DNA from: a virus
DNA: 41,929 bases
Strand: one strand, 5' to 3'
IMG/VR virus record: IMGVR_UViG_3300032797_000083
Coordinates: 1 to 41,929 of that record
The translations under genes and the position numbers were made by a program. The notes beneath the pieces were generated by a model, which worked only from the letters and a program-made list of their open reading frames with translations, did not search any database and was not told where the DNA came from. Below are positions 5,707-10,218 of the stretch, in pieces; the first letter of the stretch is position 1, and the number at the start of each line of letters is the position of its first letter.

Positions 5707-6087
5707 ATGAGAGAAATAAAATTTAGGGCATGGTATCCAACTGAGGCGAGGATGGGCAAATGCGCCCTCCATCAAAATGTGCATTCATCTTATGAGGGAG
5801 AATCATTGAATGACCTTATAGCTAATTGTCAAGAAGCCGGGATTGTCCTTATGCAATATACTGGCCTAAAAGATAAAAATGGTAAGGAAATATATGAGGG
5901 GGATATTGTTCAGGTCTATTATACCGATAAATTTAAGGGTGGAAAGGCGATTATAAAATATTTGGAGCGTTCTTTTTGTATGAGTCAAGGTGCAGATCTT
6001 GAAAGCGACCTGGATTGTGTTTGGTTTTATATTTGTGAGGTCATTGGCAACATCTACGAAAATCGTTACTTATTGGAGAATAAATGA
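5707..6087 (+). CDS. YopX family protein
   Basis: This 126-aa protein has the hallmark pattern of phage YopX proteins: MREIKFRAWYPTEARMG at the start, then VLMQYTGLKDKNGKEIYEGD followed by IVQVYY, a central beta-rich region and a final VIGNIYENRYLL. The family (named after Bacillus SPbeta YopX) is common in phages and of unknown function. Its ATG follows the previous TAA directly, and its end overlaps the next start (ATGA). Length and motifs are complete. Confidence 0.9.
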   Translation: MREIKFRAWYPTEARMGKCALHQNVHSSYEGESLNDLIANCQEAGIVLMQYTGLKDKNGKEIYEGDIVQVYYTDKFKGGKAIIKYLERSFCMSQGADLESDLDCVWFYICEVIGNIYENRYLLENK

Positions 6088-6704
6088 AAAAATTACTTAA
6101 AGCAACCATATTTGCGTTTGGTATGGTTATTTGTCTTTTGATTATTTTTGTATGCCAAGAGATAAGCCTACCTGGTAAGACCATGATCCCGCTCCAAAAA
6201 TGGTATAGCATGCATCGAATTATCATGGAAACCAAGGTTCCTTATGACGTTGATCCTAAATGTCCTTATGAATGGAAGTATTTTTTGCGCCTTGCTCCTA
6301 ATTTACAGGCCAAGTATATGGAACTATTTTGGAAAATAAGGCGTATGGAACAAGAAGAAATATTCAAACAGAGAATAGAATTTGCCAATAAATTCTATCG
6401 TGATCCTGGTAAAAGTATTTTCAATTCTGATAGAGCCAGATTCTTTATTATTTGCGGATATCCTGATGAGATTCAAACTGATATGGGTAAGAATCGAAGG
6501 GAAATTTGGATATATTGGTTATCGACTAGGGCGCAAGGGGTTGTTGTGACTTTTCTGGGAAATGGGATGGGAGATTGGGTATTCGACCCCTTGGGGGCCG
6601 TTAATTTAAGTGATATTGCTTATTTATTAGATTACGGCCAGGAATGGTGGAGTCCGATAGATTGGGAACTTTGGTTACAGGAATCAGGATTGATTCGAGA
6701 ATGA
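6084..6704 (+). CDS. membrane-anchored GWxTD-domain-like protein
   Basis: This 206-aa protein starts with a signal or anchor helix (MKKLLKATIFAFGMVICLLI). After a basic/aromatic linker, residues about 95-155 read FANKFYRDPGKSIFNSDRAR, FFIICGYPDEIQ and REIWIYW. This resembles the end of the bacterial GWxTD domain (RD motif, 'YGxPDxI', 'EIWxY'), though the GW-TD signature itself is not seen. Such domains occur in exported bacterial proteins and are unusual in phages. A role at the host envelope is inference. The start overlaps yopX and the stop overlaps the methyltransferase start. Confidence 0.5.
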   Translation: MKKLLKATIFAFGMVICLLIIFVCQEISLPGKTMIPLQKWYSMHRIIMETKVPYDVDPKCPYEWKYFLRLAPNLQAKYMELFWKIRRMEQEEIFKQRIEFANKFYRDPGKSIFNSDRARFFIICGYPDEIQTDMGKNRREIWIYWLSTRAQGVVVTFLGNGMGDWVFDPLGAVNLSDIAYLLDYGQEWWSPIDWELWLQESGLIRE

Positions 6705-7582
6705 CCCATGTTGACTTATTTAGCGGCATCGGCGGTTTCGCCCTTGCGGCAGAATGGGCAGGATTTACGACAATTGCCTTTGTTGAAATTGACCCCTACT
6801 GCCAAGCCGTCCTCAAAAAGCATTGGCCTGAAGTCCCGATCTTCGGGGACATCAAGGGGTTCAAGTGGCCTATGGCCGACAGTATCAACGAGGGATTACA
6901 AGGATACGGGAAATCTTGTCAATGTTCCAGAGAATTGCCTGTTGGGGCGGGCTGTCAAATTACGCTCCTCACTGGCGGTTTTCCCTGCCAACCTTTTTCT
7001 TGTGCCGGGAAGCGACGAGGCAAGGAAGATGACCGATATCTCTGGCCTCAAATGTTCAGAGTCATTTCCGAGGTCAGGCCCACTTGGGTGCTTGCGGAAA
7101 ATGTTGCTGGAATCGTCAAGATGGAGCTCGACAATTGTTTATCTGACTTGGAAAGCGAAGACTACGAAACGGAGGCGTTTATTATTCCAGCTTGCGCCGT
7201 CAACGCCCCGCATAGAAGGGACAGGGTATGGATTGTGGCCCACGGCAAGGATACGAGGGTTATTGGGCGGAAGTGGGTCGCGAGAAATGATGAGGTCAAA
7301 AATATTGAAGGGGGAAATCAAGGAAAACGAAGCTCGGGATATGATGGCGGTCAAGATGTGGCCGACACCAAGAGAATTTTGCCACAAAGACACCAATGTG
7401 GACGGGGAAAAACAGAATTTGGGAGAAGTTGTCGGTGGTCAGTTGAACCCGACGTGGGTCGAGTGGCTCATGGGGTTCCCTCTCGGGTGGACAGACTTAA
7501 ATGTCTCGGAAACGCCATTGTTCCACAAGTCGCCTTCCCGATTCTCCAAGCAATCGCACAAATTGAAAGAGAAAAAAAATGA
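6701..7582 (+). CDS. DNA (cytosine-5)-methyltransferase, orphan phage type
   Basis: This 293-aa enzyme methylates cytosine C5 in DNA. Visible motifs are DLFSGIGG (I, SAM binding, residues 5-12), FVEIDPYC (II), GGFPCQPFS with catalytic Cys96 (IV), ENVAGI (VI, 133-138), APHRRDRVWIVA (VIII, 169-180) and LGNAIVPQV (X, about 269). The target-recognition region between VIII and X is about 85 residues. ATG 6701 overlaps the upstream TGA and begins directly at motif I, so the longer upstream start is unlikely. No partner endonuclease is visible, so it probably protects phage DNA from host restriction. A second long frame overlaps the whole gene. Confidence 0.92.
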   Translation: MTHVDLFSGIGGFALAAEWAGFTTIAFVEIDPYCQAVLKKHWPEVPIFGDIKGFKWPMADSINEGLQGYGKSCQCSRELPVGAGCQITLLTGGFPCQPFSCAGKRRGKEDDRYLWPQMFRVISEVRPTWVLAENVAGIVKMELDNCLSDLESEDYETEAFIIPACAVNAPHRRDRVWIVAHGKDTRVIGRKWVARNDEVKNIEGGNQGKRSSGYDGGQDVADTKRILPQRHQCGRGKTEFGRSCRWSVEPDVGRVAHGVPSRVDRLKCLGNAIVPQVAFPILQAIAQIEREKK

Positions 7583-7589
7583 TTCATAA
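6708..7589 (+). CDS. overlapping +1 frame in the methyltransferase gene (dual-coding candidate)
   Basis: A frame of 293 codons is open across the whole methyltransferase gene, shifted by +1. It reads as motifs I recall from phage proteins encoded at C5-methyltransferase loci: LWPTVSTRDYKDTGN, PENCLLGRAVKL, ARKMTDISGLKCSESFPRSG, YLTWKAKTTKRRRLLFQL, MWPTPREF, and LNPTWVEWLMGFPLGWTDLN at the end. The same DNA coding WLMGFPLGWTDL codes AHGVPSRVDRLKCLGNA in the methyltransferase frame. Whether this frame is translated is unknown: I see no clear Shine-Dalgarno for ATG 6708. Alternatives are a conserved by-product of the methyltransferase code, or expression by frameshift. Confidence 0.35.
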   Translation: MLTYLAASAVSPLRQNGQDLRQLPLLKLTPTAKPSSKSIGLKSRSSGTSRGSSGLWPTVSTRDYKDTGNLVNVPENCLLGRAVKLRSSLAVFPANLFLVPGSDEARKMTDISGLKCSESFPRSGPLGCLRKMLLESSRWSSTIVYLTWKAKTTKRRRLLFQLAPSTPRIEGTGYGLWPTARIRGLLGGSGSREMMRSKILKGEIKENEARDMMAVKMWPTPREFCHKDTNVDGEKQNLGEVVGGQLNPTWVEWLMGFPLGWTDLNVSETPLFHKSPSRFSKQSHKLKEKKNDS

Positions 7590-7627: not shown

Positions 7628-8386
7628 ATGATATATCAAATTAAATCACAAAAAAAATTGGATGATTTATTAAAAAAAGAACCTGGGGCAATCGTTGAAA
7701 TCATCGGATTTGTGGCCATACTCTGGGCCAACAGCCACGCCGAGCTCAGGGCCAACAGCCACGCCGAACTCTGGGATAACAGCCACGCCGTACTCAGGGA
7801 TAACAGCCACGCCGAACTCAGGGAAAACAGCCACGCCGAGCTCAGGGGCAACAGCCACGCCGTACTCTGGGATAACAGCCACGCCGTGCTTTATGATTTT
7901 TCTTCTGTTCATATGCTTGACTCGTCAATAGCAAAGAAAATAAGCCCCAAGGCGAAGATTATACAAATCAATTATCCATCCTCTATAAGTGCATGGGCAA
8001 AACTCAAGGGAATTAAAATCATTCGTGGAAAAATTCGTCTTTGGAAAATCGTACAGAATAACGGAACTGATTTTTATAAAGGACTAATCAATTACGATAT
8101 CATGGGACAAATTATTGCACCAGATTGGAATTCGGGATATAGGGAAGAATGTGGGAAGGGTTTACATCTGTCGGATACCCCATCAGGGGCAAGGTATTTT
8201 TATAATGGTGATCAATTAAAAAATGCTCGTCTCTTTGAGGTAGAGGCCAGGGTCTCTGATTGTCGAGCATTTCCTGGGACTCCATCTTATCCAATGAAAT
8301 TACGAGCTCGAGCATGTCGGAAAATTAAAGAATGGCCGATTGATTACAATTCAAATTTTGAGGACAAGAAGCAAAATGATAAATAA
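7628..8386 (+). CDS. octapeptide-repeat (NSHA) protein with DUF7666-like C-terminus
   Basis: This 252-aa protein has a short N-terminal region and then seven tandem eight-residue repeats (residues 33-88; W/R-x-NSHA-x-L, 24 bp each), likely forming a small beta-solenoid. A linker follows, then a C-terminal domain (about 130-245) with DFYKGLINYD, APDWN, EECGKGLHLSDTPSGARYF and LRARACRKIKEWP. This matches the pattern of phage DUF7666-type domains as I remember them. AAGGAG precedes the ATG. Role unknown. Repeat DNA identity suggests recent expansion of the NSHA array. Confidence 0.65.
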   Translation: MIYQIKSQKKLDDLLKKEPGAIVEIIGFVAILWANSHAELRANSHAELWDNSHAVLRDNSHAELRENSHAELRGNSHAVLWDNSHAVLYDFSSVHMLDSSIAKKISPKAKIIQINYPSSISAWAKLKGIKIIRGKIRLWKIVQNNGTDFYKGLINYDIMGQIIAPDWNSGYREECGKGLHLSDTPSGARYFYNGDQLKNARLFEVEARVSDCRAFPGTPSYPMKLRARACRKIKEWPIDYNSNFEDKKQNDK

Positions 8387-8825: not shown

Positions 8826-8939
8826 TTAAAATATATCTTTTCGCTTACTCAAGGCCAAATATAATCCAACTATAACTGACCCCACAAGGAATGTAATGAC
8901 TAATAAATCTAATGTAAGTTCGATGTATGCCCAGATCAT
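8826..8939 (-). CDS. small single-pass membrane protein (37 aa)
   Basis: On the minus strand the ATG at 8939-8937 overlaps the stop of the larger gene above it (ATGA). The product is MIWAYIELTLDLLVITFLVG followed by SVIVGLYLALSKRKDIF: one long hydrophobic helix with a basic end. It is the last gene of the minus-strand operon, 12 bases from the convergent early plus-strand gene. Confidence 0.5.
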   Translation of the reverse strand: MIWAYIELTLDLLVITFLVGSVIVGLYLALSKRKDIF

Positions 8940-9547
8940 TTTCTCGGCTCCAATGATTGCCCCAATGGTTGCACGTAACTTTTATCTCTACTATAAGTAT
9001 AACCTCGATCAAATTGGATTCTATAAGATTTCTTATAAACCCCTATAACGACCCCATCACCAAAAGCAAAATCATGCACCCTTGAACCTTTTTGAATTAT
9101 TTGATCTAATGCTTCTCTTTTGGCTTGTCTTTTTCGCTCTGCATCGCCAGCTACTATTGTTTTATAATGCATGATGTTTTCGGCACGCTTTAGTATCTGG
9201 TCTGCTTCTTTATTTAATTCTGCGGACTTATTAAAGCTCTTAAATATTTTATCTCTATAGGGTATTCGCCCAGGCTGGGTAAAAAAGGCATGATCTCCAC
9301 GCATGGCTTCTAACGGAGCGGCCTTGCTATCGGCTTCGATCTCTAATCTTGCGGCCCTTTGAATTAACTTATTTGCCTTTATTTCTGCCTTAATAGTCCT
9401 AAAATGTCTAATTTCTTCTATTTCTTTTGGTTCACATCCCAAGCAAAATATACCCATGTTTTTTTCATACATGGCAAGAGAACTAACCGCTATGTCTGCT
9501 TGACACCTCGCACAATTTCCCGGCCATTTAACAATTATTTGTCTCAT
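8936..9547 (-). CDS. DUF3560-like protein with N-terminal zinc ribbon
   Basis: This 203-aa protein starts with a zinc ribbon (NCARCQADI ... FCLGCEP, C-x2-C twice). A long helical region (residues 45-130) follows with RAARLEIEADSKAA and FFTQPGRIPYRDKI, resembling DUF3560-type phage and plasmid proteins. The C-terminus (about 150-195: GSRVHDFAFGDGVVIGVYKK ... IQFDRG) looks like a small SH3/KOW-type beta barrel. Function unknown. The start overlaps the paralogue upstream in the operon by four bases. Confidence 0.6.
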   Translation of the reverse strand: MRQIIVKWPGNCARCQADIAVSSLAMYEKNMGIFCLGCEPKEIEEIRHFRTIKAEIKANKLIQRAARLEIEADSKAAPLEAMRGDHAFFTQPGRIPYRDKIFKSFNKSAELNKEADQILKRAENIMHYKTIVAGDAERKRQAKREALDQIIQKGSRVHDFAFGDGVVIGVYKKSYRIQFDRGYTYSRDKSYVQPLGQSLEPRK

Positions 9548-10218
9548 CTTTTTTCCCTTGGGTATAGATATTGCATTAGTCTCTTAGTTTGCCATTTACA
9601 TTCTGCGTCCCAAGCTACCCGAGCTGCGTCCCAGGCTGCGTCCTTGGCTGCCCTAGCAGCGTCCCGTGCTGTCCAAGCTGCGTCCCCAGCGATCCTGGCT
9701 GCGTCCCTGGCTGTCCAGGCTGCCCGAGCTGCCCCCCAGGTTGCGTCCCAAGCTGCCCTGGCTGCGTCCCTGGCTGTCCAAGCTGCATCTCTGGCTTTTT
9801 TCAATTCTTCTTGTGTGGCCTTTCCATTGGCATATCGACGGGCCACCTCAATTGCCTCCCTAGACCATTTATCATCTGGAAATTTAGCCTCGTAAATAGG
9901 CAGTACGTGTTCGGCGCAATCGCACGCAAATAGTGCGGCCGTCTTCTCATGCCAGGTCTTGAGTTTTTTCTTCAGCCTGGCTTCCCTAACTATTATTTTG
10001 TCATCGCTATTTAGTCTTTCATGCCCCCGATATTCCGCCTCGTAGATTTCATCATTGAGCCAGTTGGTCAAATCTTGTTTGCGGCATAGATGAATACCAT
10101 TTTCGCATACAGATAATTCCCCCTCCGCCTTGACCCAAACTCCACATTTGGGCCACCTGAACCTACTAAACGGCCCGATACGACCTTCCTCTAGACATTT
10201 AAATAATTTCTCTTTCAT
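9544..10218 (-). CDS. Imm-5-like / Ala-Trp-Asp repeat protein, minus-strand copy (224 aa)
   Basis: This is a second intact family member, on the opposite strand. Domain order is as at 2284: KCLEEGRIGPFSRFRWPKCG, CENGIHLC, NWLNDEIYEAEYRG, then the LFACDCAEHVLPIYEAKFPDD domain. A longer array of AARAAWDA/AWTARDA units follows, then a KWQTKRLMQYLYP tail. The stretch coding VLPIYEAKF through KKARDAA is almost identical in DNA to the copy at the window start, which suggests recent gene conversion or duplication by inversion. It is the second gene of the operon. Confidence 0.75.
   Translation of the reverse strand: MKEKLFKCLEEGRIGPFSRFRWPKCGVWVKAEGELSVCENGIHLCRKQDLTNWLNDEIYEAEYRGHERLNSDDKIIVREARLKKKLKTWHEKTAALFACDCAEHVLPIYEAKFPDDKWSREAIEVARRYANGKATQEELKKARDAAWTARDAARAAWDATWGAARAAWTARDAARIAGDAAWTARDAARAAKDAAWDAARVAWDAECKWQTKRLMQYLYPREKR

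Follow-up and report, generated by a model that had tools for sequence, protein, structure and literature searches.

A viral methyltransferase locus that very probably encodes the two subunits of one C5 cytosine methyltransferase in overlapping frames

The window analyzed here, the whole 41,929-nucleotide stretch of IMG/VR virus record IMGVR_UViG_3300032797_000083, carries portal and tail-spike genes and a cytosine methyltransferase (MTase) locus that is open in two frames of the same strand. The enzyme frame (alpha), from an ATG at 6701 to a stop at 7580-7582, specifies a C5 MTase of 293 aa. The +1 frame contains no stop from 6705 until that at 7587-7589 and, counted from its ATG at 6708, comprises 293 codons (beta), so that it does span the MTase gene as the original prediction had stated. 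The strings quoted in that prediction, namely, GLWPTVSTRDYKDTG, GSDEARKMTDISGLKCSESFPRSGP, and LNPTWVEWLMGFPLGWTDLN, together with AHGVPSRVDRLKCLGNA in the enzyme frame, were all found in the sequence. Alpha and beta overlap by 875 nt, with the beta stop 7 nt beyond the alpha stop, and nesting of this kind also occurs in relatives. Coordinates of the genes and their motifs are listed in Table 1.

Table 1. Genes and sequence features of the alpha/beta locus (positions refer to the window)
Feature	Position	Strand	Description and basis
alpha gene	6701..7582	+	Predicted C5 cytosine MTase catalytic subunit; PF00145 (Pfam; E, 5.8e-41), phrog_363 (PHROG; E, 1.7e-77), M.HhaI profile match over motifs I-VIII
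beta gene	6708..7589	+	Nested frame (+1) of 293 aa; predicted subunit for target recognition and motif IX; open frame, phrog_1008, selection tests
alpha motif I, DLFSGIGG	6713..6736	+	Cofactor binding; alignment A2, M.HhaI alignment
beta WPT module 1 (WPTVSTRDYKDT)	6873..6908	+	Within N-terminal insertion; sequence, alignment A1
alpha motif IV, catalytic Cys codon in GGFPCQPFS	6986..6988	+	Invariant in A2; aligns with M.HhaI GFPCQ
beta N-terminal conserved region (LVPGSDEARKMTDISG...LTWKAKT..LLFQLAPSTP)	6999..7217	+	Lies over alpha motifs IV-VIII; A1
alpha motif VI, ENV	7097..7105	+	Invariant in A2
alpha motif VIII region, PHRRDRVWIVA	7208..7240	+	A2, M.HhaI alignment
beta WPT module 2 (WPTAR)	7236..7250	+	Sequence, A1
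beta WPTP module 3 (WPTPREFCHK)	7359..7388	+	A1; homologous to LLPTP modules of single-frame enzymes
beta motif-IX-like segment LNPTWVEWLMGFPLGW	7443..7490	+	A1; homologous to single-frame RLNPAFPEWMMGWPTGW directly before motif X
alpha motif X, LGNAIVPQV	7505..7531	+	A2; weak alignment with M.HhaI KQFGNSVV

Such a long +1 opening had been predicted to be improbable by chance, and both null models agreed: the +1 frame was stop-free in none of 20,000 synonymous shuffles of alpha (mean, 5.3 stops) and in none of 20,000 draws based on the codon usage of the phage itself (mean, 15.2 stops). The longest +1 opening in the 21 other long open reading frames (ORFs) of the window (209 to 1,308 aa) was 105 codons. 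The description of the DNA as AT-leaning was mistaken, the gene having a G+C content of 51%. The ATG of alpha shares bases with the stop codon of the upstream gene (6084-6704), as ATGA, and translational coupling of the two genes is suggested because of this overlap; the upstream product has a weak GWxTD-domain match under the Pfam cutoff. The downstream gene (7628-8386) contains tandem 24-nt repeats coding for (A/D)NSHA(E/V)L(R/W) units and matches phrog_15773, which bears a function-unknown label. A 163-aa frame with A/S/L-rich repeats (9404-9895, + strand) lies antisense to two ORFs in 8936-10218 (- strand) and is probably a shadow of repetitive coding sequence.

Alpha was identified as a C5 MTase by the presence of motifs I, IV (PCQ), VI (ENV), VIII, and X, and it also matched TIGR00675 (NCBIfam) above the cutoff. 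Between motifs VIII and X, its sequence is unconserved in A2 and the M.HhaI profile match ends. Neither a recognition domain nor motif IX was found in alpha's own chain by A2 conservation or with the M.HhaI profile. The enzyme-frame segment originally assigned to motifs IX-X proved to be motif X only, with the motif-IX-like sequence situated in the +1 frame.

Beta had no Pfam or NCBIfam match. It matched phrog_1008, labeled "DNA methyltransferase" (E, 5.4e-32), as did all 31 aligned beta homologues. Three parts of beta are conserved: an N-terminal region (PGSxEARKMTxTSG...LTWK...LLFQLxPS), WPTP modules in variable number, and an LNPxWVEWLMGFPxGW segment, which in the window is encoded by bases that read as VEPDVGRVAHGVPSRV in alpha. 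The spacing of this last segment (L-x-P-x5-L-M-G-(F/Y)-P) resembles that of classical motif IX. PDB sequence searches with beta gave no direct match to any solved C5 MTase. An AF2 model of beta alone (32 sequences) was poor (mean pLDDT, 56.5; pTM, 0.24), with locally high pLDDT in a hairpin at 145-165, and Foldseek found no fold match with this model; therefore, no fold is claimed for beta alone.

Selection on the +1 frame was evaluated using 160 viral loci, half of them fetched with the +1 protein as the query and half with the enzyme; the loci were picked for their resemblance to the window or beta and are not a random sample. We defined the core as the region from the PCQ motif to ten codons before the LGN motif and took expectations from synonymous shuffles. 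Across 107 nonredundant homologues, the +1 core contained 9 stops (434 expected) and was stop-free in 101 genes (1.8 expected). In the same genes, +1 stops numbered 120 upstream of the core (127 expected) and 201 after LGN/motif X (128 expected). Stops in the +2 frame were near expectation (1,203 versus 1,174; enzyme-selected set).

Codon usage and protein similarity were constrained in the same part of the gene. In homologue pairs with 35 to 60% identity, the ratio of same-codon usage to expectation was 0.96 to 1.06 for alpha residues 1 to 60, 1.27 to 2.65 for residues 61 to 276 (with the bins for 61 to 84 drawn from few pairs), and approximately 1.0 beyond residue 277. The similarity of the +1 proteins in divergent pairs was 2.10 in the PCQ-VIII core (0.45 in shuffles) and 3.47 in the IX region (0.27 in shuffles), with no excess over shuffles in the N terminus and tail. 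Similarity in the +2 frame was also raised in the core, but less than in +1; some rise is expected where bases are fixed by two frames. Among closely related pairs, the freest codon position was alpha position 3 in the N terminus, in motifs I-VIII, and after motif X, and it was alpha position 1 (i.e., beta position 3) in the recognition and IX regions. Since the freest position switches along the gene, alpha dominates one part and beta another; the pattern fits dominance of the alpha frame in motifs I-VIII and X and of the beta frame in the recognition region and motif IX.

The start of beta appears to differ between groups of relatives. The +1 frame is closed upstream in 70 genes, of which 42 have an ATG with a Shine-Dalgarno sequence shortly before the core (8.1 expected). 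In 37 genes, including that of the window, beta is open up to the start of alpha; most of these have nested starts, (A/G)TGAATG, and in the window, ATG 6708 lies 7 nt after ATG 6701. Beta would be made by its own initiation rather than by frameshifting, at an ATG 4 to 7 nt past the alpha start in the window's clade and, for most other relatives, at an internal ATG that has a Shine-Dalgarno sequence. In the genes that are open to the alpha start, the conservation of the +1 N terminus was 0.99 (0.38 expected), compared with 0.88 (0.50 expected) for the +2 control. Because +1 conservation only mildly exceeds that of the control, the case for selection is less certain in the first 60 residues of beta than in the core.

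Reduced synonymous variation and stop depletion were confined to the overlap, and these comparative data support true dual coding, one of two readings offered in the original prediction. The synonymous-constraint test that it had proposed for homologous loci favored this reading, as did the excess similarity of the +1 proteins and the internal starts; frequent +1 stops with unreduced synonymous variation, which would have spoken against it, were looked for and did not occur.

Relatives that carry all of these parts in one chain were found among actinophage MTases (Mycobacterium phage Batiatus gp66 and prophiFSIL01-1 gp6). The chain of the Batiatus gp66 type runs from motifs I-VIII through LLPTP modules and RLNPxFxEWMMGxPxGW to motif X; in terms of the nested pair, the order is alpha N terminus, beta C terminus, and alpha C terminus. 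The beta C-terminal profile matched single-frame MTases between motifs VIII and X (hhalign, 96.9%; E, 1.4e-10). The beta hidden Markov model (HMM) matched 48 of 49 single-frame proteins (E ≤ 1e-3; Z = 1e5), and the alpha profile matched the N-terminal half (I-VIII) of the same proteins (E, 9.1e-49), the E values of locally built HMMs being approximate. Both halves are thus shown, by profile comparison, to be homologous to parts of one single-chain enzyme, and the assignment of motif IX to the small polypeptide comes from its homology to the single-frame enzymes. A structural model of a single-chain relative matched the C5 MTase fold of M.HhaI (E, 1.2e-13), with confidently predicted helices for LNPAFPEWMMG (340-345) and motif X (361-370). 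The N-terminal region of beta had no counterpart in the single-frame enzymes, in which matches begin at an HMM position of at least 147. Beta most likely represents the target-recognition region (WPTP modules) and a motif-IX-like segment of the same enzyme, an identity that the original prediction had not recognized.

The range of architectures was examined in 151 further loci, of which 53 were single-frame, 45 had a +1 nesting of 300 nt or more, 33 had a shorter +1 overlap with motif X outside alpha, and a few were of other kinds. The 52 measurable single-frame genes contained 321 +1 stops (414 expected), and none was stop-free; therefore, the nested open frame is not a by-product of the enzyme code. 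Beta overlaps the MTase in +1 in all but a few frame-shifted or partial cases among the first 252 loci and in 80 of 80 loci of a second subfamily. The idea of a stand-alone, nonoverlapping beta family was dropped, as all 80 loci from a scan of viral contigs were nested in +1. Essentially no beta was found away from an MTase in 332 loci, with one partial case (L242). A search for an EcoHK31I-like restriction system in E. coli gave prophage copies only; all three copies fetched have the nested +1 frame, with alpha alone annotated. Two further genes have variant arrangements: in Arthrobacter phage MidnightRain gp84, the +1 frame is open over codons 113-423 although motifs IX and X are in frame 0, and in Jinkies gp3, motif X is on beta and the +2 frame is nearly open.

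Although the nested arrangement is shared by hundreds of phages, one frame is annotated in the majority of inspected records; both are annotated in Escherichia phage K1G (gp34/gp35) and Paenibacillus phage Bloom (56/57). In an E. coli EC20 prophage, the NCBI annotation divides alpha into two incomplete pseudogene pieces; a single open frame covers both pieces, with beta nested in +1, and the recognition region was apparently treated by the pipeline as missing sequence. Simple repeats, (AG)7-(AG)19 or G9-G12, occur in the shared recognition region of 10 relatives (L061, L083, L090, L104, L124, L150, L153, L158, L160, and L196). The repeat length leaves the C termini of alpha and beta swapped in L150, L153, L158, L160, and L196, and the same swap occurs in L214, where no repeat was found. 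The repeat-length swaps suggest phase variation in which both subunits are disabled together, although some may be assembly errors.

Because the pieces corresponding to alpha and beta are joined in one chain in the actinophage MTases, a nested two-subunit C5 MTase is the most likely interpretation, and we consider it very probable, judging from the comparative sequence evidence, that one and the same DNA specifies both subunits, each in its own frame. Alpha would supply the catalytic domain, which also binds the cofactor and contains motifs I-VIII and X, and beta would supply target recognition through its WPTP modules and the motif-IX-like segment; the two would assemble into one enzyme. Orphan methyltransferases of phages generally serve to shield the phage genome from restriction by the host; by analogy, the assembled enzyme may methylate the phage's own DNA, probably as protection against host restriction.

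Three other explanations were weighed against the two-subunit enzyme. The original prediction's second reading, in which conserved enzyme motifs keep the +1 frame open with nothing made from it and so create a family of misannotated proteins, was rejected and is now highly improbable. The +1 strings over motifs IV-VIII do follow in part from conserved alpha residues, but shuffles that preserve the enzyme protein still predict 434 core stops where 9 are seen, single-frame relatives lack a comparable depletion of +1 stops, and the conserved +1 motifs fall in the recognition region, where alpha is unconserved and beta position 3 is freest. It is unlikely that a programmed +1 frameshift after motif VIII yields one chain of motifs I-VIII, recognition region, and motif IX. 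Such a chain would have the order seen in single-frame relatives, and the alpha N terminus is joined in frame to the beta C terminus in L150, L153, L160, and L214; nevertheless, conservation of the +1 frame begins far ahead of motif VIII, in sequence for which a shift product has no use; an internal ATG with a Shine-Dalgarno sequence is enriched 5-fold; and the chain would lack motif X without a second, reverse shift of the ribosome.

Slightly less likely still is that beta is a separate phage protein (e.g., one that inhibits or regulates the enzyme, or an antirestriction protein) that merely overlaps the MTase. The absence of a counterpart of its N-terminal region in single-frame enzymes and of a Pfam or NCBIfam name would fit such a protein; against it stand the homology of its C-terminal part to the recognition/IX region of single-chain MTases, the lack of a recognizable motif IX in alpha, and the scarcity of stand-alone beta genes (none in 332 loci, apart from the partial case).

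For the origin of the proposed two-subunit enzyme, a +1 frame change located after motif VIII and before the recognition region may have divided a single-chain ancestor, after which each half extended over the other. The chances are about even that the pair was born in this way by mutual overprinting, with a new beta N-terminal region and a new alpha linker. The N-terminal region gained by the recognition half would comprise approximately 75 residues lying over motifs IV-VIII; the catalytic half, for its part, would have gained a linker over the recognition/IX region, thereby keeping motif X. If so, the beta N-terminal region owes its existence entirely to overprinting, and the single-chain, partly overlapping, and fully nested forms coexist in living phages.

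To our knowledge, long same-strand gene overlaps in DNA phages are seldom well documented. The series of loci illustrates the origin and maintenance of a nested gene pair, with single-frame, partly overlapping, and fully nested versions of one enzyme serving as matched controls. For annotators, the MTase locus would encode two proteins, one of which is usually missed, and we suggest that the target specificity of many phage C5 MTases be sought in the overlooked frame. The simple repeats in the shared part of some relatives may turn off both subunits in one step.

The principle of a C5 MTase with motif IX on a separate polypeptide is already known from M.EcoHK31I. A search of the open-license literature gave no report of a nested alpha/beta family in phages. 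Within that literature, the breadth across phages and prophages, the range of forms between single-frame and nested genes, the recognition modules in the nested frame, and the coextensive genes with adjacent starts appear to be new.

M.EcoHK31I of E. coli was reportedly described by Lee, Kam, and Shaw in 1995 and recognizes YGGCCR; M.EaeI is grouped with it. The small gene of M.EcoHK31I lies wholly inside the large gene in another frame, a nesting like that of beta over alpha in +1. According to a review, M.EcoHK31I is a two-polypeptide C5 MTase with motifs I-VIII and X on the large polypeptide and motif IX on the small one, and its recognition domain belongs to the larger subunit, not the smaller. 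By this description, it is like the present locus, in which alpha has motifs I-VIII and X without IX and beta has motif IX; it differs in that the recognition modules here are in beta and in that beta covers alpha along its entire length, with adjacent starts. We noticed no gene for a restriction enzyme beside the alpha/beta locus. M.AquI (CYCGRG) is likewise a natural C5 MTase divided over two polypeptides, with motifs I-VIII on one chain and motif IX on the other (review). Unlike our locus, it is split within the variable region, has motif X on the small subunit, and is not described as having nested genes, so that it more closely resembles the actinophage pairs with partial overlap, Samora gp34/gp35 and WalterMcMickey gp78/gp77. 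M.EcoHK31I, M.AquI, and artificially split enzymes are all active; natural and artificial C5 MTases split between motif VIII and the recognition domain function by fragment complementation. Batiatus gp66 and prophiFSIL01-1 gp6 share the catalytic half and the LLPTP/WPTP and LNPxFxEWMMGxPxGW segments with the locus, whereas everything in them lies in one frame and their +1 frame has many stops. PHROGs 1008 (beta) and 363 (alpha) are both labeled "DNA methyltransferase," and the labels are silent on the shared bases. ShiLan-type phage methylases contain an out-of-frame HNH endonuclease within the gene (PMC11855218) and thus also hide a second protein out of frame in a phage methylase gene; their second frame is an inserted homing element, whereas that of the present locus would be part of the enzyme itself.
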